Below are positions 6,652 to 64,000 of a stretch of DNA of 64,000 bases, piece by piece. This DNA is from Aerosticca soli (lineage in GTDB: Bacteria > Pseudomonadota > Gammaproteobacteria > Xanthomonadales > Rhodanobacteraceae): NCBI RefSeq assembly GCF_003967035.1, contig NZ_AP018560.1, positions 395,001-459,000 of the forward strand, given 5' to 3'. Each line of letters begins with the position of its first letter. Within the stretch, counting starts at the first letter, position 1. The notes beneath the pieces are model-generated. The model had not been told where the DNA came from. It made no database searches and saw only the letters and a list, made by a program, of their open reading frames with translations. Both the position numbers and the translations under genes were made by a program.

Positions 6652-7872
6652 ATGTCGCGTTTTTGGAAGATCGCGCTGATCGTCATCGCGGTGCTCGTCG
6701 TGCTGGCGCTCGGCGCACGCCTGCTGCACCGGCCCGGGGCGAAGCCGGGCGCCGGCACGGCCCAGGAAGGGGCCGGGGCCGATGCGACGCCGGTGCCGGT
6801 GACGGTGGAACCGGTGCAGCGCCAGGACGTGCCGATCTACCTCACCGCGCTGGGCACGGTGCAGGCGCTCAATACGGTGTCGGTGACGCCGCAGGTGAGC
6901 GGCCAGCTGCTCAAGCTGTTCTTCGTCGAGGGCCAGGAGGTGAAGGCCGGCGAGCTGATCGCGCAGATCGATCCGCGCACGTTCCAGGCCGCCTATGACC
7001 AGGCGGTGGCCAACAAGGCCCGCGACGAGGCCCAGCTCGCCACCGCGCGCGGCAATTACGCGCGCAGCCGCAACCTGGCGCCGCAGGGCTACATCTCCAA
7101 GCAGGATCTGGACAATCTGCGCAACACCGTGAGCCAGCTCGAGGGCACGGTGGCGGCCGATGCGGCGGCGATCCGCGATGCGCAGGTGCAGCTCGGCTAC
7201 ACCCGCGTGCTCTCGCCGATCGACGGCGTGGCCGGCATCCGCAACGTCGATCCGGGCAACCTGGTCAACACCAGCACCACCCTGGTCACGCTGACCCAGC
7301 TGCGTCCGATCAACGTGATCTTCAAACTGCCCGAGCAGAACCTCGCCGAGGTGCGCGACGCCTTCCGCGGCGGCACGCCGCTCGAGGTACAGGCGGTGGA
7401 CCGCACCGACGCGCACGTGATCGCCGGCGGCGGCGTGCTCAAGGTGATCGACAACCAGATCGACAGCAGCACCGGCACGTTCAAGCTGAAGTCGGAGTTT
7501 CCCAATGCCGACAACGCGTTGTGGCCGGGGCAGTTCGTCAACGTGCGGCTCAAGGTGCGCACGGTGAAGGGCGGGCTGGTGATCCCGGCGCAGGCGGTGC
7601 AGCGCGGGCCGGACGGCGATTACGTGTACCAGGTGCAGGCCGATAGCACGGTCAAGACGCAGCCGGTGACGGTGGCGGCCGAGGTGGACGAAAGCCACGT
7701 GATGGTGTCCACCGGGCTGGCCGCGGGCGACCGGGTGGTCACCGAGGGCCAGTTCCGGTTGAAACCGGGCAGCAAGGTCAAGGCGCTCAAGCCCGGCGAG
7801 GTGCCGCAGGCGCCGGTGGATGCCGCCAAGGACAAGGGCCAGGGCCGGCGCGGCGCGCGCGGGCACGGCTGA
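6652..7872 (+). CDS. mdtA: RND efflux periplasmic adaptor, MdtA-like
   Basis: A 406-residue membrane fusion protein. An N-terminal membrane anchor (IALIVIAVLVVLALGARLL) precedes the biotinyl-lipoyl half-motif VSVTPQVSGQLLKLFFVEGQEVKAGELIAQIDP, described here as two parts around residues 75-105, a helical hairpin, and the beta-barrel with GLVIPAQAVQRGPDGDYVY. It links inner-membrane RND pumps to an outer-membrane channel. Two RND pumps follow at once, the MdtABC arrangement. The ATG at 6652 gives a normal length; upstream in-frame codons would add an unlikely N-terminus. No outer-membrane channel gene lies beside the operon, so a TolC-type partner elsewhere is likely. Confidence 0.88.
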   Translation: MSRFWKIALIVIAVLVVLALGARLLHRPGAKPGAGTAQEGAGADATPVPVTVEPVQRQDVPIYLTALGTVQALNTVSVTPQVSGQLLKLFFVEGQEVKAGELIAQIDPRTFQAAYDQAVANKARDEAQLATARGNYARSRNLAPQGYISKQDLDNLRNTVSQLEGTVAADAAAIRDAQVQLGYTRVLSPIDGVAGIRNVDPGNLVNTSTTLVTLTQLRPINVIFKLPEQNLAEVRDAFRGGTPLEVQAVDRTDAHVIAGGGVLKVIDNQIDSSTGTFKLKSEFPNADNALWPGQFVNVRLKVRTVKGGLVIPAQAVQRGPDGDYVYQVQADSTVKTQPVTVAAEVDESHVMVSTGLAAGDRVVTEGQFRLKPGSKVKALKPGEVPQAPVDAAKDKGQGRRGARGHG

Positions 7873-56538: not shown

Positions 56539-59500
56539 ATGCTGGGCCGACTGGTCGAACTGTCCCTCTCGCAGCGCCTGATGGTGTTGCTGGTGGCGCT
56601 CGCCGCCATCGGCGCGGGCGTGTGGTCCTATCTGCAGCTGCCGATCGACGCTTATCCCGACATCGCACCGGCCCAGGTCAAGCTGATCCTGAAGGCGCCG
56701 GGGATGACGCCCGAGGAAGTCGAGACGCGCGTGGTGACGCCGCTGGAAATGGAGCTGCTCGGCATTCCGCACGCGGTGATGCTGCGTTCCACCGCCAAGT
56801 ACGGCATCGCCGACGTCACCCTCGACTTCACCGACGGCACCGACATCTACTGGGCGCGCCAGCAGGTCGCCGAGCGCTATGCCGCCGCCGCCGACCAGCT
56901 GCCGCCGGATCTGGCGGGCGGGCTCGCGCCGATCGCGACGCCGCTGTCGGACATGTTCATGTTCACCCTGGAGGGCGGCAACCTCACCCTGGCCGAACGG
57001 CGCACGCTGCTCGACTGGACCCTCCGCCCGGCGCTGCGCACCATCCCCGGCGTGGCCGATCTCAACGCGCTGGGCGGGCAGGTGCGCAGCTTCGTGGTCG
57101 AGCCCGACCCGGTGCGGCTGGCCGCGGCCGGCCTGCGCATCGCCGACCTGAGCGACGCGCTCGCCCGCAACAACCGCAACGACGGCGCCGGCCGCCTGCG
57201 CCAGGGCGACGATGCGCTGATCGTGCGGGTCGAAGGCGCGGTGCGCACGCTGGACGATCTGCGCCGGGTGGTGGTGGCGCGTCGCGACGGCGTGCCGATC
57301 CAGGTCGCCGACGTGGCCGAAGTGCGCTACGGCAGCCTGACCCGCTACGGTGCCGTCACCCGCGACGGCAACGGCGAGGCGGTGGAGGGCCTGGTGGTCG
57401 GCCTGCGTGGTGCCGATGCCTCCAAGGTGGTGACCCAGGTGCGCGCCAAGCTCGCCCAGCTGGCGTCCGCGCTGCCGCCCGGCGTGCGGGTGGAGGTGTT
57501 CTACGACCGCAGCACGCTGATCGAACGCGCGGTCGGCACGGTCAAGGAGGCGCTGCTCGAGGCCGTGGTGCTGGTAGTGGTGTTGCTGCTGCTGTTCCTG
57601 GGCGATGCGCGCGCCGCGCTGGTGGTCGCGCTGACCCTGCCGATGGCCGCGCTGCTCACTTTCCTGCTGATGCACCTGGTCGGCATGAGCGCCAATCTGA
57701 TGAGTCTGAGCGGGCTGGCCATCGCCATCGGCATGCTGGTCGATGGCGCGGTGGTGGTGGTGGAAAACGCGGTGACCCGGCTGGCTCCGCAGGCGGGCGA
57801 GGGCGTCGAGCTGCCGCGGCTCAACCGCATCTACCGCGCGGTGCTCGAAGTGGCCACGCCGGTGGTTGCCGGGGTGGTCATCATCTGCCTGGTGTTCCTG
57901 CCGCTGCTCACCCTGGAGGGGCTGGAAGGCAAGCTGTTCGGACCGGTCGCGCTCACCATCGTGTTCGCGCTCGCCGCCTCGCTGCTGCTCGCGGTGACGC
58001 TGATCCCGGTGCTGTGCTCGCTCCTGCTGCGCGAGCGCGCGCATCGCGAGCCGTGGCTGATGCGCCAGCTCGAGCGCGGCTACCGGCCGCTGCTCGACGC
58101 CGCGCTCGCCCATGGCCGGCTGATGATCGTGGTGGCCGGCGTGGCGCTGGCGCTGGGCGTGCTGGCCTACCTGGGGAGCGGCAAGACCTTCATGCCGACC
58201 ATGGACGAGGGCGATCTGCTGATCCAGCTGGTCAAGCGTCCCTCGGTGAGCCTGGCCGCCTCGCGCGACCAGGACCTCGCCATCGAGCGGGCGATCCGCG
58301 CGCGTCTGCCCGAGGTCGAGCACGTGGTCGCCCGGCTGGGTTCGGACGAGCTCGGCCTCGACCCGATGGGCCTCAACGAGACCGACATGTTCCTCAAGCT
58401 CAAGCCGCGCGCGCAGTGGCGCGTGCCCGAGCGCGGCTGGCTGGAGGATCAGCTGCGCGCGGTGATGCAGGACTTCCCCGGCATCGATTACGGCTTCACC
58501 CAGCCGATCGAGATGCGGGTGTCGGAAATGCTCACCGGCAGCCGCGGCGATGTCGCGGTCAAGGTGTTCGGCACCGAGCTGGCCACTATCAACCGCCTCG
58601 CCAACCACATCGCCGCGATCATCGAACGCACCCGCGGCAGCCAGGACGTGATCGCGCAGACCCAGGAGGGCGTGCGTTATCTCGGCGTGCGCCTCGACCG
58701 CGCCGCGGCAGGCCGCTACGGGCTGGATGTCACCGAAGTCCAGGACGAACTGCGTGGCGTGCTCGAGGGCCGTCAGGCCGGCGTCGTGATCGAGGAGCAG
58801 CGGCGCACGCCGGTACTGGTGCGCGCCCCTTCGAGCTGGGGCGAGACCCCCGAACTGCTCGCCCGGCTCGAGCTCGCGCGCGGGGATGGCATGGGCACGG
58901 TGCCGCTGGACGCCGTGGCCGCGCTGGCGCCGACCAGCGGGCCGATGCAGGTGCGGCGCGAGAACGGCTCGCGCTTCGCCCTGGTGCAGGCCAACGTGAG
59001 CGGGCGCGATCTGGTCGGCTTCGTCGAGGAGGCCCGCGCGGCGGTCGAGCGCGAGGTCCACCTGCCGGCTGGCTACAGCGTCACCTGGGGCGGCCAGTTC
59101 GAGAACCAGCAGCGTGCGGCGGCGCGGCTGGCCGTGGTGGTGCCGATCGCGCTCGGCCTGATCTTCCTGGTCCTGTTCATGAGCTTCGGCTCGCTGCGCC
59201 AGGCCCTGCTCATCCTGTGCAACGTGCCGTTCGCGCTGGTCGGCGGCATCGTCGCCCTGTGGCTGTCGCGCGAGTACCTGTCGGTGCCGGCCTCGGTCGG
59301 CTTCATCGCCCTGCTCGGCATTGCCGTGCTCAACGGCGTGGTGCTGGTCACCTACTTCAACCAACTGCGTGCGCAGGGACTGGCACTGGACGAGGCCGTC
59401 CGCCACGGCGCGCAGCGGCGCCTGCGGCCGGTGCTGATGACCGCCTCGATCACCGCGCTCGGCTTGGTGCCGCTGTTGTTTGCCAGCGGCCCGGGGGCGG

Positions 59501-59616
59501 AGATCCAGCGGCCGCTCGCCATCGTCGTCATCGGCGGGCTGGTGAGCTCGACCGCATTGACCTTGCTGCTGCTGCCGGTGCTGTTCCGCCGCTTCGGCGA
59601 GGAGAGGGCAGGATGA
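56539..59616 (+). CDS. Heavy-metal RND efflux pump, CzcA/CusA family
   Basis: A 1025-residue HME-type RND pump with twelve helices and two porter loops. The proton-relay helix reads AIAIGMLVDGAVVVVENAV. Divalent-cation CzcA pumps have an Asp-Phe-Gly in the first half of this motif; here it is Ala-Ile-Gly, closer to copper/silver CusA or less studied HME pumps, so the metal is uncertain. The C-terminal half has GIAVLNGVVLVTYFNQL and an HGAQRRLRPVLMT motif. It is 4 bp from its adaptor and its stop overlaps the DUF3240 gene. Export of a metal cation or chelate through the TolC-type partner is expected. Confidence 0.9.
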   Translation: MLGRLVELSLSQRLMVLLVALAAIGAGVWSYLQLPIDAYPDIAPAQVKLILKAPGMTPEEVETRVVTPLEMELLGIPHAVMLRSTAKYGIADVTLDFTDGTDIYWARQQVAERYAAAADQLPPDLAGGLAPIATPLSDMFMFTLEGGNLTLAERRTLLDWTLRPALRTIPGVADLNALGGQVRSFVVEPDPVRLAAAGLRIADLSDALARNNRNDGAGRLRQGDDALIVRVEGAVRTLDDLRRVVVARRDGVPIQVADVAEVRYGSLTRYGAVTRDGNGEAVEGLVVGLRGADASKVVTQVRAKLAQLASALPPGVRVEVFYDRSTLIERAVGTVKEALLEAVVLVVVLLLLFLGDARAALVVALTLPMAALLTFLLMHLVGMSANLMSLSGLAIAIGMLVDGAVVVVENAVTRLAPQAGEGVELPRLNRIYRAVLEVATPVVAGVVIICLVFLPLLTLEGLEGKLFGPVALTIVFALAASLLLAVTLIPVLCSLLLRERAHREPWLMRQLERGYRPLLDAALAHGRLMIVVAGVALALGVLAYLGSGKTFMPTMDEGDLLIQLVKRPSVSLAASRDQDLAIERAIRARLPEVEHVVARLGSDELGLDPMGLNETDMFLKLKPRAQWRVPERGWLEDQLRAVMQDFPGIDYGFTQPIEMRVSEMLTGSRGDVAVKVFGTELATINRLANHIAAIIERTRGSQDVIAQTQEGVRYLGVRLDRAAAGRYGLDVTEVQDELRGVLEGRQAGVVIEEQRRTPVLVRAPSSWGETPELLARLELARGDGMGTVPLDAVAALAPTSGPMQVRRENGSRFALVQANVSGRDLVGFVEEARAAVEREVHLPAGYSVTWGGQFENQQRAAARLAVVVPIALGLIFLVLFMSFGSLRQALLILCNVPFALVGGIVALWLSREYLSVPASVGFIALLGIAVLNGVVLVTYFNQLRAQGLALDEAVRHGAQRRLRPVLMTASITALGLVPLLFASGPGAEIQRPLAIVVIGGLVSSTALTLLLLPVLFRRFGEERAG

Positions 59617-59921
59617 TGTCCGCCGCATACCAACGCCTCACCCTGGTCGCCCCGCGCGAGCTGGAGGAAGCGCTCGTCGAGACTCTGCTGGAGCTGACCT
59701 CGACCGGGTTCACCGCGATCAATGTCGCGGGGCATGGCGAGGGGTTCGACCAGGCCGGTATCCGCGAGCGCGTGCGCGGGCGTGTCGACCGGCTGATGCT
59801 GTGGCTGCTGCTGCCCGACGGGCAGGCCGACCGCGTGCTGGCCGAAGTCGAGAAACGCCTGCCGCACAGCCGTATCGTCTGGTGGCTGGAGCCGGTCCAG
59901 GCCCGCGGGAGGCTGGCGTGA
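59613..59921 (+). CDS. DUF3240 small protein of the efflux operon
   Basis: A 102-residue soluble protein (LTLVAPRELEEALVETLLELTSTGFTAIN, described here in short) with a PII-like ferredoxin fold pattern of strand, helix, strand. It matches DUF3240, found next to heavy-metal RND pumps. Two ATGs in tandem (59613 and 59616) are both possible; the first overlaps the pump stop by 4 bases. It ends in a 4-base overlap with the outer-membrane factor gene, so all four genes are coupled. A role in metal sensing or pump control is only inferred. Confidence 0.75.
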   Translation: MMSAAYQRLTLVAPRELEEALVETLLELTSTGFTAINVAGHGEGFDQAGIRERVRGRVDRLMLWLLLPDGQADRVLAEVEKRLPHSRIVWWLEPVQARGRLA

Positions 59922-61219
59922 GACGGCTCGGCTGCATATTCGCGTTGATCTGTCTGCCGGTCTTCGCGCAGACCGGTGCCGACACCAGCCTGCCGCCGCG
60001 CGAGCTCGTGCTCGATGCGATCGAGTCCGCGCCCGAGGTGCGTGCCGCCGAAGCCGGCGTGGCCCGCGCCGAGGCCGAGGAACGCATGCGCCGCGCAGGC
60101 CCGCACGAGGCCCAGTTCACCGTCATCCCGCAACGGCGCCGGGTCGACCAGGAGGGTCGCTACCACGAATGGGAGGTCGATCTTTCACGCGGCGTGCGCT
60201 GGCCCGGCAAGGCCCGGCTCGACCGCGAGATCGGCGCGACCGGCCGCGAAGCGGCGCAGCTGATGCTGGAGGACGCCCACCATGCCGCCGCGCGCCGTCT
60301 GCTGGCGTTGTGGACGGACTGGCAGCGCGCCGCCGCCGCCACCGCGTTGCGCCAGCAGCAGGCGCAGCTCTGGCAGCAGGAACTCGCCAGCGTGGATCGG
60401 CGGGTGGCCTTGGGCGACGCCGCCCAGCGCGATCGACTGGCCGTGGACGCCGCGCTGGCGCAGGCCCAGGTCGCCGTGCTCCAGGCCCAGGCCGAGGAAA
60501 CCCGTGCCCGCCTTGCCCTGCAGGCGCAGTTCCCGGGACTGCCGCTGCCCGCCCAGGTGCGCTTGCCGCCGCAGCCGGATCCGCTGCCGGGACAGGATGC
60601 GCACTGGCAGGCGCTGATCGTGGCGCGCAGCCATGAAATCGGCGCGGCCGATGCCCGTGCGCGGCAGAAGGACGCCGAAGCCCGGCGCGCGCAGGCCGAT
60701 CGCACGCCCGATCCCGTCCTCGGCCTGCGCATGCTCGACGAGCGCGGCGGCCGCGAACACACGCTGGGCGTGACCATGACCATCCCCTTCGGCATTGCCT
60801 ACCGCGGCGCCGCCGCCGCGGCTGCCGGCGCCGACGCGATGGCCGCCGCCGCCGACCTTGCCATCACCCGCCGCGACATCGAGGAGGGCGCGCACCAGGT
60901 GGTCGCCGCGGCGCGCGCGGCATTCGCGGTCTGGCAGCGTCAGCGCGAGGCGCGCGATGCCGCCGAGACCAGCGCGGCCAAGACCGAGCGTGCCTATGCG
61001 CTCGGCGAACTCGGCCTGGTCGACGTGCTCGCCGCGCGCCGCTTGGCCGAAGACAGTGCGCTTGCCGAGCAGCGCGCGCTGCTCGACGCCATCGAGGCGG
61101 TCACCCGTGTCCAGGTGGACGCACACGAGGTGTGGCACGCCCACGCGCCGGGCGATACCGACGAGGATGCCCCCGTCCGGCCCGGCCAGCCGGCGCTGCC
61201 GACCGTCGGCGGCGGCTGA
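59918..61219 (+). CDS. Outer-membrane efflux channel, TolC/CzcC family
   Basis: A 433-residue outer-membrane factor starting at GTG in a 4-base overlap. A short signal peptide (CIFALICLPVFAQ) is followed by two repeated halves rich in long alpha helices with Ala, Glu and Arg, and by RDRLAVDAALAQAQVAVLQAQAEETRARLALQ-type coiled coil around residues 170-205, given in part. The barrel strands carry PDPVLGLRMLDERGGREHTLGV. It completes the tripartite pump with the adaptor and the RND protein. The C-terminal 30 residues are Asp/Pro-rich and variable. Confidence 0.88.
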   Translation: MRRLGCIFALICLPVFAQTGADTSLPPRELVLDAIESAPEVRAAEAGVARAEAEERMRRAGPHEAQFTVIPQRRRVDQEGRYHEWEVDLSRGVRWPGKARLDREIGATGREAAQLMLEDAHHAAARRLLALWTDWQRAAAATALRQQQAQLWQQELASVDRRVALGDAAQRDRLAVDAALAQAQVAVLQAQAEETRARLALQAQFPGLPLPAQVRLPPQPDPLPGQDAHWQALIVARSHEIGAADARARQKDAEARRAQADRTPDPVLGLRMLDERGGREHTLGVTMTIPFGIAYRGAAAAAAGADAMAAAADLAITRRDIEEGAHQVVAAARAAFAVWQRQREARDAAETSAAKTERAYALGELGLVDVLAARRLAEDSALAEQRALLDAIEAVTRVQVDAHEVWHAHAPGDTDEDAPVRPGQPALPTVGGG

Positions 61220-61269
61220 ACGACGGCCCGTCGCCAGCATCCAGCACGCGCGAATCAGCCTGGGAGCGG

Positions 61270-61299
61270 TTGACACTTGCGCGTCGCAGCACGAAAATG
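61270..61299 (+). promoter_or_regulatory. Candidate promoter for the mgtA leader
   Basis: A perfect TTGACA hexamer at 61270-61275 is followed 18 bases later by an AT-rich AAAATG at 61294-61299, a weak match to the -10 box. It would start transcription at about 61305, upstream of the structured leader. The weak -10 keeps the call tentative. Confidence 0.3.
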
Positions 61300-61306
61300 C
61301 GCGACG

Positions 61307-61332
61307 CCCCGCGGCGCACTTTTGCCGCGGGG
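61307..61332 (+). terminator. Hairpin after the efflux operon
   Basis: A perfect 9-bp stem, CCCCGCGGC with GCCGCGGGG, and an 8-base loop (GCACTTTT). It lies 87 bp after the outer-membrane factor stop. It has no T run after it, so it may end the efflux operon weakly or be the first element of the leader RNA. A second 7-bp inverted repeat (GCGTCGC at 61281 with GCGACGC at 61301) overlaps it. Confidence 0.45.
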
Positions 61333-61368
61333 TCTCGTCCGACCAAACCAAGGCATATGGACACCTAC

Positions 61369-61520
61369 CCTAGTCGCAACGCCGCCATCCGCGAGCATCG
61401 GATGACGGCGTCGCCGGAACCATCGAACGCCTGCGGCGACCGCCTGCGGTCGGCCGGCGCCTTCCTCGACTAGGAAGCCCGGCCACCCAAAGACGGCGCT
61501 CAAGGCACCGTCTTTAGGAG
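61369..61520 (+). ncRNA. Structured 5' leader, candidate metal riboswitch for mgtA
   Basis: An apparent three-way-junction RNA upstream of a short gene and mgtA. P1 is a perfect 8-bp pair (CCTAGTCG 61369-61376 with CGACTAGG 61467-61474). P2 is CGCCG-C-CATCCG with CGGATG-A-CGGCG (61380-61410). P3 is CGCCGG 61412-61417 with CCGGCG 61454-61459, containing a sub-hairpin GACCG/CGGTC (61438-61451). Next comes an 8-bp stem, AAAGACGG 61489-61496 with CCGTCTTT 61508-61515, directly abutting the AGGAG ribosome site (61516-61520), an arrangement that could mask or free the site. It does not look like the M-box or the enterobacterial mgtA leader. All pairing was found by eye. Confidence 0.6.
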
Positions 61521-61528
61521 CTGGGCTT

Positions 61529-61702
61529 ATGAAACTCCTGCGCGATCTCCTTCGCCTGCACCTGCTGCGCCGCCGGACCGTGCGTCGCGAATGGACCATC
61601 ACCGTGCCGGCGCCGCTCGAGCGGACGCATCCGGCCGAATCGCTCTCCCGTCGGCATCACCACGAGCCCGTGCTGACGGTCGTCCAGCGCCGGGCAGCCT
61701 GA
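61529..61702 (+). CDS. 57-residue basic leader protein upstream of mgtA
   Basis: A 57-residue frame with AGGAG 8 bases before its ATG. It is strongly basic: MKLLRDLLRLHLLRRRTVR opens an amphipathic Arg/Leu helix, followed by a Pro-rich middle and RRHHHEP. There is no clear transmembrane segment. It lies between a candidate riboswitch and mgtA, the place where small regulatory or leader peptides occur in Mg transport operons. I do not recognise the family. Its Arg/Leu-rich start and histidine cluster could sense metal or affect translation, but this is conjecture. Confidence 0.6.
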   Translation: MKLLRDLLRLHLLRRRTVRREWTITVPAPLERTHPAESLSRRHHHEPVLTVVQRRAA

Positions 61703-61858
61703 AAGCTCGCCGTCATGGCCGGGTGCTATCTCTGCCCGGCTTGGCGCTGACGTCATTCCTCCTGCCGCACCAGGCCGGTGCGGCGCCCCAGCGCAAGCCT
61801 GCGTGCCGGACATGCCGCGTGTCCGGCCGGTCCCTCTCTGCCCAAGAGTCCTGCCGCG

Positions 61859-64000
61859 ATGAGCAAGCACGCCCCAGCCGATCAAGGCCATGCCGCGACC
61901 CGCGCGATCGGTCTGCGCGAGGCCTTGCGACCCAACGATGAACTGCTCGCCGCGCTCGGCACCAGCCTGGCCGGGCTCGACGAGCAGGAGATCGCCGAGC
62001 GGCTGGACCGGGACGGCCTCAACGAGGTCTCGCACGAAAAGGCGCCGCACTGGGCGCTGCAGCTGCTGCACGCGTTCGCCAATCCGTTCATCGTCGTGCT
62101 GCTGGTGCTGGCCGGCGTGCAGCTGGCCACCGATCCGGACAACCTGACCAGCCCGAGCATCATCGCGGTGATGGTGTCGATCAGCGTGTTCCTGAGCTTC
62201 GTGCAGGAATACCGCTCGTCGAAGGCGGCGGACAAGCTCAAGGCCATGGTGCGCAACACCGCCACGGTGACCCGCCGCGCCTCGGACGGTCACAGCGAGC
62301 GCATCGAGGTGCCGGTCGAGGAGCTGGTGGTCGGCGACATCGTGCATCTGGCCGCCGGCGACATGGTGCCGGCCGACCTGCGCCTGCTCACGGCCAAGGA
62401 CCTGTTCGTCAGCCAGGCGATCCTCACCGGTGAATCGCTGCCGGTGGAAAAATCCCCGCCCGGGCAGGCCGTCGCCACCGACGAACTGGCCGGCAGCAAG
62501 CCGTCGGATAACCCGCTCGACCAGCCCTCGCTGTGCTTCATGGGCACCAACGTGGTGAGCGGCACCGCCACCGCGGTGGTGATCGCCACCGGCGCGCGCA
62601 CGTACTTGGGCTCGCTCGCGCGCACCGTGGTCGGCCAGCGCGTGCAGACCAGCTTCGACCGCGGCGTCAAGAGCGTGAGCTGGCTGCTGATCCGCTTCAT
62701 GGCGGTGATGGTGCCGGTGGTGTTCGTCATCAACGGGCTGGACAAGCACGACTGGCTGCAGGCGTTCCTGTTCGCGCTGTCGGTGGCGGTCGGGCTGACG
62801 CCGGAAATGCTGCCCTTGATCGTCACCGCCAACCTCGCCAAGGGCGCGATCGCGATGTCGCGGCACAAGGTGGTGGTCAAGCGGCTCAACGCGATCCAGA
62901 ACTTCGGCGCGATGGACGTGCTGTGCACCGACAAGACCGGCACGCTCACGCTGGACCGCATCGTGCTCAAGCGGCATCTGGACCTGCAGGGCGAGCCTTC
63001 CGACGAGGCGCTCACCTACGGCTACCTCAACAGCCGCTTCCAGACCGGGCTCAAGAACCTGATGGACAAGGCGGTGCTGGAGCATCGCGACCTGGAAACG
63101 GTCGCCGAGCGCTATCACATCGTCGACGAGATTCCCTTCGACTTCCAGCGCCGGCGCATGTCGGTGGTGGTGAACGACGGCAGCGGCGAGGATCTCCTGG
63201 TCTGCAAGGGCGCGGTCGAGGAGATGCTCGGCATCTGCACCAGGGCCAAGTGGGGCGAGGAGGTGCTGCCGATGACCGACGCCATGCGCGCGGAAATCAA
63301 GGCGATGACACGCCGGCTCAACGAGGACGGGCTGCGCGTGCTGGTGGTGGCGATCAAGCGCCAGCCGCCGAGCGGGCGCGCCTATGGCGTGGCCGACGAG
63401 AACGATCTCATCGCGATCGGCTGCCTGGCCTTCCTCGATCCGCCCAAGGACACCGCCGCCACCGCGATCGCCGCGCTGCGCCAGCACGGCGTGACGGTGA
63501 AGGTGCTGACCGGCGACAACGAGGCGGTGACGCGCAAGATCTGCCGCGAGGTCGGCCTGGACGTCGCGCATTCGGCGCAGGGCCGCGACATCGAACCGCT
63601 CGACGACGACGCGCTCGACGCGCTGGTCGCGCGCACCACCGTATTCGCCAAGATGTCGCCGCTTGAGAAGGCGCGCGTGGTCAAGTCGCTGCAGCGCCAG
63701 GGCCACACCGTCGGTTTCCTCGGCGACGGCATCAACGACGCGCCGGCCCTGCGCGAGGCGGACGTCGGCATCTCGGTGGACACCGCCACCGACATCGCCA
63801 AGGAGTCGGCCGACATCATCCTGCTGGAAAAGAACCTGATGGTGCTGGAGGAGGGCGTGCTGGAGGGGCGCGTCACCTTCGGCAACATCATCAAGTACAT
63901 CAAGATGACCGCCAGCTCCAACTTCGGCAACATGTTCTCGGTGCTGGTGGCGAGCGCGTTCCTGCCGTTCCTGCCGATGCTGCCGCTGCACCTGCTGGTG
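61859..64000 (+). CDS. mgtA: Magnesium-translocating P-type ATPase (partial, 3' end outside window)
   Basis: 714 residues of a P3B-type ATPase are present; the end is cut by the window (full length is about 900). The phosphorylated Asp is D358 in CTDKTGTLT. Earlier are two helices, the actuator motif LTGESLPVEKS, and the PEM(L) membrane motif GLTPEMLPLIV; later are KGAVEEML, KVLTGDN and the hinge GDGINDAPALREADVGISV. It imports magnesium with the electrochemical gradient. A 156-bp gap separates it from the 57-residue gene; I see no separate terminator there. Expression is probably set by the structured leader at 61369-61520. Confidence 0.94.
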   Translation, partial: MSKHAPADQGHAATRAIGLREALRPNDELLAALGTSLAGLDEQEIAERLDRDGLNEVSHEKAPHWALQLLHAFANPFIVVLLVLAGVQLATDPDNLTSPSIIAVMVSISVFLSFVQEYRSSKAADKLKAMVRNTATVTRRASDGHSERIEVPVEELVVGDIVHLAAGDMVPADLRLLTAKDLFVSQAILTGESLPVEKSPPGQAVATDELAGSKPSDNPLDQPSLCFMGTNVVSGTATAVVIATGARTYLGSLARTVVGQRVQTSFDRGVKSVSWLLIRFMAVMVPVVFVINGLDKHDWLQAFLFALSVAVGLTPEMLPLIVTANLAKGAIAMSRHKVVVKRLNAIQNFGAMDVLCTDKTGTLTLDRIVLKRHLDLQGEPSDEALTYGYLNSRFQTGLKNLMDKAVLEHRDLETVAERYHIVDEIPFDFQRRRMSVVVNDGSGEDLLVCKGAVEEMLGICTRAKWGEEVLPMTDAMRAEIKAMTRRLNEDGLRVLVVAIKRQPPSGRAYGVADENDLIAIGCLAFLDPPKDTAATAIAALRQHGVTVKVLTGDNEAVTRKICREVGLDVAHSAQGRDIEPLDDDALDALVARTTVFAKMSPLEKARVVKSLQRQGHTVGFLGDGINDAPALREADVGISVDTATDIAKESADIILLEKNLMVLEEGVLEGRVTFGNIIKYIKMTASSNFGNMFSVLVASAFLPFLPMLPLHLLV

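Follow-up and report, generated by a model that had tools for sequence, protein, structure and literature searches.

Leaders of magnesium transporter genes

The systems closest to the element presented here are MgtQ of Salmonella and MgtL of E. coli. MgtQ is an 8-codon ORF that resides on stem-loop 1:2 and harbors Asp2, Pro4, and Glu5; destabilization of the ribosome favors stem-loop 2:3 and frees the ribosome-binding site (RBS) of mgtB from stem-loop 3:4 (PMC8092293). In the case of MgtL, ribosomes are dropped at the motif EPDP when Mg2+ is low, and the leader acts via Rho-dependent termination (PMC11282234).

The leader discussed in the following precedes mgtA in a 64 kb stretch of Aerosticca soli DNA, denoted here as the window. 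It has in common with MgtQ a short ORF that carries Asp2 with a Pro close to it, stem-loops predicted to exclude each other (1:2 and 3:4 versus 2:3), the RBS of the next gene within 3:4, and an Mg2+ P-type ATPase as target. They differ in lineage, in the length of the ORF (38 codons in the window versus 8), and in its position, which is a 5' leader and not the space between two genes; moreover, the Rhodanobacteraceae leader has many further targets and a second ORF (ORF2) before mgtA. No sequence relation to MgtQ is apparent, with MgtQ and MgtL set apart here by their descriptions (8 codons; EPDP). With MgtL, the leader shares an ORF located 5' of mgtA and an acidic residue plus proline at the peptide start, whereas Rho-dependent termination and EPDP on the side of MgtL contrast with a masked Shine-Dalgarno (SD) sequence and one Asp accompanied by one or, in some cases, two Pro here. 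The attributes of the MgtQ/MgtL type found at the locus are thus a short ORF 5' of an Mg2+ transporter gene that is predicted to be translated, an acidic residue and a proline in its first codons, and, as in MgtQ, a putative alternation of 1:2/3:4 with 2:3 that involves a masked RBS and of which P1 is the least supported helix.

Cation transporter genes are also controlled by riboswitches. The M-box and the mgtA leader are the magnesium riboswitches of Rfam, and these two as well as the manganese riboswitch yybP-ykoY are likewise cis leader RNAs of cation transporter genes; unlike them, the Rhodanobacteraceae leader gives no covariance-model match. Rfam yielded no match at gathering scores in the whole window, nothing credible among the matches up to E 10 in 61000-61900 (no M-box, mgtA leader, or yybP-ykoY), and no match on any leader of 12 loci. 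On the basis of these searches, assignment to a known RNA family is rejected, in agreement with the initial annotation, which could not match the leader to the M-box, the enterobacterial mgtA leader, or yybP-ykoY. One diverged copy (L167) has a yybP-ykoY manganese riboswitch (RF00080, 81.9 bits, 1579-1744 on the minus strand) about 6 kb downstream of the leader. Full-text literature searches (mgtA leaders, MgtL, NRMT, riboswitches in Rhodanobacter, Dyella, and Luteibacter) returned no title or abstract start describing this leader.

Sampling and distribution of the leader

The comparison is based on 102 close loci obtained by two routes. Twenty-two, the window's own included, stem from a DNA comparison with 61 genomes (E 5.3e-9 or better), and 80 were kept from 104 relatives found by a peptide-pattern scan of GTDB contigs. 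Since some genomes were retrieved by both routes, the 102 loci represent 90 distinct leaders; loci L023-L030 (E 3.6e-4 and weaker, short matches) are excluded from all counts. To these, 21 diverged copies are added, which are weak-scoring second copies (20 regions and L114). Two alignments are used, A3 with the 90 distinct leaders and A4 with 47 leaders (26 of those 90 and the 21 diverged copies).

Kept records with a genus name belong to Rhodanobacter, Dyella, Frateuria, Fulvimonas, and Luteibacter; all others are MAGs. In the NCBI taxonomy, Rhodanobacter and Luteibacter are members of Rhodanobacteraceae. A covariance model built from the 90 leaders has matches in 157 of 233 genomes of this family and in 99 of 398 genomes order-wide, where all among the matches listed lie in Rhodanobacteraceae. 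A second model from the 47 leaders again matches 99 of these 398 genomes, and with either model no match falls outside the family. Class-wide (369 genomes), the 47-leader model matches the window's own genome alone. All matches found are therefore confined to one family and the leader is lineage-restricted, although remote relatives could have escaped these searches, in which filters were strict and six or seven candidates were scored per genome. Of 23 genomes checked, five harbor mgtA at E <= 1e-150; all five belong to Rhodanobacteraceae and have no leader match, and no similar ORF is located upstream of these genes (L169-L173).

Organization of the locus

The features of the locus are compiled in Table 1. 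Scanning of 61150-61900 revealed TTGACA-17-GAAAAT as the sole promoter-like site, compared with a mean of 0.0 in shuffled sequences. In all 102 close loci, the best site 5' of the leader ORF consists of TTGAC followed by A, T, G, or C and a 17-nt spacer, with a median distance of 59 nt from the end of the -10 element to the ATG of the leader ORF. The predicted promoter is conserved and of the sigma70 type. At the place of the hairpin 61307-61332, G+C-rich inverted repeats are seen by eye in several relatives.

Table 1. Features of the leader and its surroundings in window coordinates (A3 and A4, alignments of 90 and 47 leaders)
Feature	Position	Strand	Remarks
Outer-membrane efflux gene	59801-61219		5' of leader; Pfam OEP
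Promoter TTGACA-N17-GAAAAT	61270-61298	+	predicted transcription start ~61305
Perfect 9-bp G+C-rich hairpin, CCCCGCGGC / GCCGCGGGG	61307-61332	+	at predicted mRNA 5' end, before uORF
Leader ORF (uORF), 38 codons, MDTYPSRNAAIREHRMTASPEPSNACGDRLRSAGAFLD	61357-61473	+	ATG to TAG; TAG at 61471-61473
P1 5' strand, CCTAGTCG	61369-61376	+	codons 5-7; pairs with 61467-61474
P2 hairpin	61379-61411	+	double changes in 9/10 modelled pairs (A4)
P3 hairpin, conserved form	61438-61451	+	97.4% of cells paired (A3); double changes in 3/6 pairs (A4)
S hairpin around uORF stop codon	61452-61484	+	predicted to exclude P1 and outer mask; double changes in 6/11 pairs (A4)
P1 3' strand, CGACTAGG	61467-61474	+	overlaps uORF stop codon
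Mask hairpin	61475-61528	+	covers SD AGGAG 61516-61520
Mask, outer arms and tip	61475-61483 / 61520-61528; tip 61489-61515	+	
ORF2, 57 aa, Arg-rich	61529-61702	+	between mask and mgtA; small protein or second leader ORF
mgtA	61859-64000	+	ATG at 61859; cut by window end

The gene 3' of the leader encodes an Mg2+ P-type ATPase, as already stated in the initial annotation; its match to TIGR01524 (1003.5 bits) lies well above the cut-off of 610.75, and PRK15122 is above its cut-off, too. It had further been proposed that mgtA is controlled via a masked SD. A cis leader with a putatively masked SD does precede mgtA, but since ORF2 lies between this SD and mgtA, the masked SD at the window locus is not mgtA's own. 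The 8-bp stem AAAGACGG (61489-61496) / CCGTCTTT (61508-61515), which ends at the SD, is present in the sequence and in the minimum-energy fold; rather than a separate masking stem, it is the tip of a longer hairpin.

ORF2 is read in all 102 close loci with the consensus MKLLRDF...TVTVPAPL, of which the motif TVTVPAPL is conserved. Its dN/dS amounts to 0.62, and no match was obtained in Pfam and NCBIfam. In two diverged copies (L157 and L162), ORF2 is replaced by a transporter gene and the last ATG of the leader is the start of a Na/Pi gene, so that in these copies the masked SD belongs to the transporter gene itself.

Just 5' of the leader, the region 56539-61219 of the window harbors a gene for a CusA/CzcA-family RND permease (TIGR00914, 1045.9 bits), a small ORF, and the OEP gene. 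RND operons of the same family follow diverged leaders elsewhere.

A conserved ORF within the leader

The initial annotation overlooked the uORF, which runs through P1 and both arms of the domain described there. In every one of the 102 close loci, which represent 90 distinct leaders, this frame is open, comprises 37-39 codons, and ends with TAG; 80 of the loci were chosen by peptide pattern and are therefore biased toward an open frame, and 22 were chosen by DNA. Among the diverged copies, 20 of 21 uORFs extend over 33-41 codons and have their stop codon (TAG or TGA) at an equivalent position of the structure. The exception, L163 (leader at 7524-7715, minus strand), has an extra base before the stop, due to which the frame runs for 58 codons and ends overlapping the ORF2 ATG (ATGA); here translational coupling apparently takes the place of termination.

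Selection on the frame is visible in gaps and codons. Distinct gap patterns in A3 are divisible by three in 4 of 4 cases within the uORF, compared with 1 of 23 from its stop codon to the following ATG (Fisher p 2.8e-4, patterns not being strictly independent events). The dN/dS ratio, calculated from 90 rows with gap-split codons (in 12 of 90 rows) skipped, is 0.17 for codons 1-7, 1.95 for P2, 0.76 for the linker, 0.55 for the rest, and 0.79 overall. This profile argues that selection preserves the frame and its N-terminus, whereas RNA pairing dictates P2; among 21 leaders, for example, codon 13 reads GAG, CTG, AAG, TCG, GTG, ACG, or TTG. Met-Asp-x(0-2)-Pro opens all 123 frames, 43 of which were found without the peptide pattern, and Asp2 is located outside the helices of both states. 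A function of the uORF product as secreted or membrane micropeptide is thought unlikely because the codons past the first seven lack strong purifying selection and the product has no match in NCBIfam.

Mutually exclusive helices

The window leader folds with -88.9 kcal/mol (z -5.41), a stability reached by 0 of 200 shuffles. The 8-bp long-range pair reported in the initial annotation, denoted here as P1, is present in the sequence and in the minimum-energy fold. For the comparison of relatives, state A was defined as P1, P2, P3, mask, and tip hairpin, with the S hairpin outside the model. The A4 alignment was fitted to state A, hence its counts lean to this state, and because the shuffles keep no phylogeny, all covariation results serve as indications only. 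In A3, 95.6% of state A cells are paired and 12 pairs show double changes (0/500 shuffles as high by any measure); in A4, the values are 93.5% and 28 of 41 pairs (0/500). The mask is represented in A4 by 9 pairs in two helices, 6 of them with double changes. For S, 97.4% of cells are paired in A3, with double changes in 3 of 12 pairs (6/500 shuffles) and a covariation score reached by 23/500, and 91.3% in A4, with double changes in 6 of 11 pairs (4/500) and 12 cells (0/500). The helices thus covary in relatives, as had been suggested for checking, with P2, P3, and the mask doing so strongly and P1 alone being weakest. Regarding the two well-paired arms that had been described, P2 covaries and stands; the second arm (~61412-61459) is not the conserved form and is rejected as a conserved helix, the conserved one being the small hairpin P3.

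P1 deserves separate consideration. In A3, 5 of its 8 pairs are invariant and one double change occurs (43/500 shuffles); 43-46 of 500 shuffles reach four of the five measures, and 7/500 reach the score. In A4, double changes are found in 3 pairs (69/500) and 10 cells (0/500), further pair types are reached by 216/500 and the score by 0/500, with three of the five measures at 0/500. The clearest change is U-A to C-G in six copies, of which five pair CAGTCG with CGACTG and have the stop changed to TGA. Covariation accordingly appears weak in the close set and stronger but mixed with the diverged copies; P1 is not accepted as proven by covariation on the former, and is accepted only in part with the latter.

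P1 and S share bases around the stop codon, and S and the outer mask share GGCC, which results in a 1:2, 2:3, 3:4 arrangement: P1 (1:2), S (2:3), and mask (3:4) are, as predicted from their pairing, three mutually exclusive helices in the layout of an attenuator. In folding calculations, covering of codons 1-10 removes P1, raises the mean pairing probability of lower S from 0.03 to 0.43, and reduces that of the outer mask from 0.73 to 0.55. With transcripts that end before the 3' strand of the mask, lower S pairing rises from 0.27 to 0.95 when codons 1-10 are covered. The window leader's own mask values are uninformative here because its mask registers differ from the alignment. The mean unpaired probability of the SD at equilibrium (90 leaders) is 0.251 for the free RNA, 0.245 with codon 6 covered, and 0.220 with the stop covered; 110 of 111 leaders were scored, with L153 left out. 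Release of the SD by a stalled ribosome at thermodynamic equilibrium is therefore not reproduced (0.251 versus 0.245), since the inner mask persists; for the SD to be freed, kinetic effects, pressure exerted by the ribosome, or another step would be required. Altogether, the data support a cis-acting leader RNA before mgtA that is absent from Rfam and carries covarying helices and a putatively masked ribosome site.

Target genes

MgtA is encoded downstream in 97 of 102 close loci (tblastn). Of the remaining five, L074 ends 285 nt after the frame, and an adaptor-like ORF is next in L012, L091, L102, and L103. The operon at L012 codes for an HlyD-type adaptor, a CusA/CzcA-family RND protein, and OEP, and the same genome has two further leader copies, both before mgtA. 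In genome G021, three close copies (L111, L112, L113) are present: an RND operon follows one of them, and the other two precede different mgtA genes, with a Na/Pi transporter gene behind one of these mgtA genes.

The targets of the diverged copies were taken as the first long ORFs downstream, with family searches confirming one or two per kind. Eight of the 21 copies precede an NRAMP-type gene (L148, L149, L151, L154, L158, L161, L163, L167), six adaptor and RND genes (L114, L150, L159, L160, L164, L165), four a TonB receptor-like gene (L152, L153, L155, L156), three a Na/Pi transporter gene (L157, L162, also L160), and one a Na+/H+ antiporter gene (L166). Confirmed were Nramp and OprB in L148, Na_Pi_cotrans in L157, ACR_tran in L150, TonB_dep_Rec in L152 and L153, and TIGR00831 in L166.

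The NRAMP-type protein of L148 scores below cut-off against the NCBIfam NRAMP models. Among solved structures, chain 7qia comes closest to it (184 bits, E 3.9e-53), with the runner-up at 74 bits. Both proteins show D-A-G versus D-P-G-N and G-T-T-x-A-P-W versus A/M-P-H of ordinary NRAMPs. A report on the Mg2+ transporter EleNRMT contains the code 7QIA twice and describes changes of Asn to Gly, Ala to Thr, Met to Ala, and His to Trp; EleNRMT also carries Mn2+ (PMC8806188). The same Gly, Thr, Ala, and Trp residues occur in the L148 protein, the one copy tested. Mainly because two unrelated kinds of Mg2+ importer share one leader, Mg2+ is taken as the signal.

Proposed mechanism and alternative explanations

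We favor, with a probability of roughly 0.55, the reading that the leader is a translation-dependent attenuator similar to MgtQ, which sets the amount of Mg2+ importer made. A strong sigma70-type promoter would produce the leader RNA, and a ribosome would start the uORF at 61357. With plentiful Mg2+, the ribosome would run through the uORF, P1 and the mask would re-form, and the next ORF would be off. When Mg2+ is scarce, the ribosome would pause or drop early at the invariant Met-Asp-x-x-Pro start, and P1 could not form. Without P1, S may form while RNA polymerase is still downstream, which would weaken the outer mask and allow translation of the next ORF. At mgtA loci the ORF concerned is ORF2, and its being translated probably shields the transcript as far as mgtA. 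While sequence comparison shows the uORF with its frame, the helices with their mutual exclusion, the promoter, and the target genes, we infer low Mg2+ as signal, an abort of the ribosome at Asp2-Pro5, and a coupling of ORF2 to mgtA, which suggests that Mg2+ shortage is reported by the ribosome itself in these bacteria. Against this reading speak the equilibrium folding, which predicts no SD release, the weak covariation of P1 alone, and the motif, which with one Asp and usually one Pro is weaker than EPDP. For the RND pump, the Na+/H+ antiporter, and the TonB receptor, a link to Mg2+ is not obvious, and EleNRMT carries Mn2+ as well.

The initial annotation proposed a candidate riboswitch. In such a reading, P1-P2-P3 would be the domain for Mg2+ or another ligand and the mask the expression platform; the ORF would then be translated but incidental. 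The two-armed domain closed by P1, the strong covariation of P2, P3, and mask, and the ion-transport genes among the targets would fit, yet indels inside the uORF are in-frame and Rfam offers no match. Ligand domains usually keep an unpaired core, and none was found conserved across the 47 aligned leaders. Conservation in 44 or more of the 47 leaders is seen in 46 columns, and those of them that lie outside the state A and S helices are AUGGAC, the last AUG, and four isolated positions; moreover, the P2 loop varies in length and sequence among copies. As the proposed ligand domain is a conserved in-frame ORF without a near-invariant unpaired core, a riboswitch is not supported and appears unlikely; the predicted regulatory logic resembles that of a leader-peptide attenuator.

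The ribosome might also be held late, in a manner like TnaC, by the C-terminus (..RSAGAFLD) or slow release at the stop, covering the S and outer-mask strands and freeing the next SD. The stop lies in the S loop at a fixed place in the same 20 of 21 diverged copies, be it TAG or TGA, RSAGAFLD ends 58 of 123 copies, and covering the stop in folding reduces lower mask pairing from 0.73 to 0.00. The SD, however, does not become more accessible by this, the C-terminal residues vary (AFLD, AFR, AFH, AFPG, LFLD, and others), and this part is less constrained than the N-terminus (0.55 versus 0.17), which makes a late stall rather improbable. It is even harder to credit that the leader senses general translation stress (ribosome-targeting drugs, low charged tRNA), with importer and efflux genes as response. 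Leader ORFs that sense several ribosome-targeting antibiotics have reportedly been described (PMC12121999), and an RND efflux operon is among the targets; its proteins, however, belong to the CusA/CzcA heavy-metal and not to a drug family (TIGR00914, one copy tested), and mgtA and the NRMT-like gene dominate the targets.

Implications for ion homeostasis in Rhodanobacteraceae

Extended to all copies, the favored attenuator reading becomes more tentative, falling somewhat short of an even chance: about 190 bases may combine a 33-41-codon ORF and a three-state attenuator into a ribosome-read Mg2+ sensor for an ion regulon (MgtA, NRMT-type transporter with porin, Na/Pi transporter, RND, receptors), independent of the enterobacterial MgtQ/MgtL and converged on a Met-acidic-...-Pro start and the 1:2/2:3/3:4 logic. 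If this is true, Mg2+ sensing via ribosome stability was reached more than once, beyond enterobacteria, and has spread over several kinds of ion transporter. The leader also illustrates that, when a single sequence is examined, an ORF may be mistaken for the aptamer of a riboswitch. With natural copies before at least five kinds of genes and rich covariation, signal codons and pairs are directly testable, and the leader would offer a first point of access to the regulation of Mg2+ and metal homeostasis in Rhodanobacter and Dyella.
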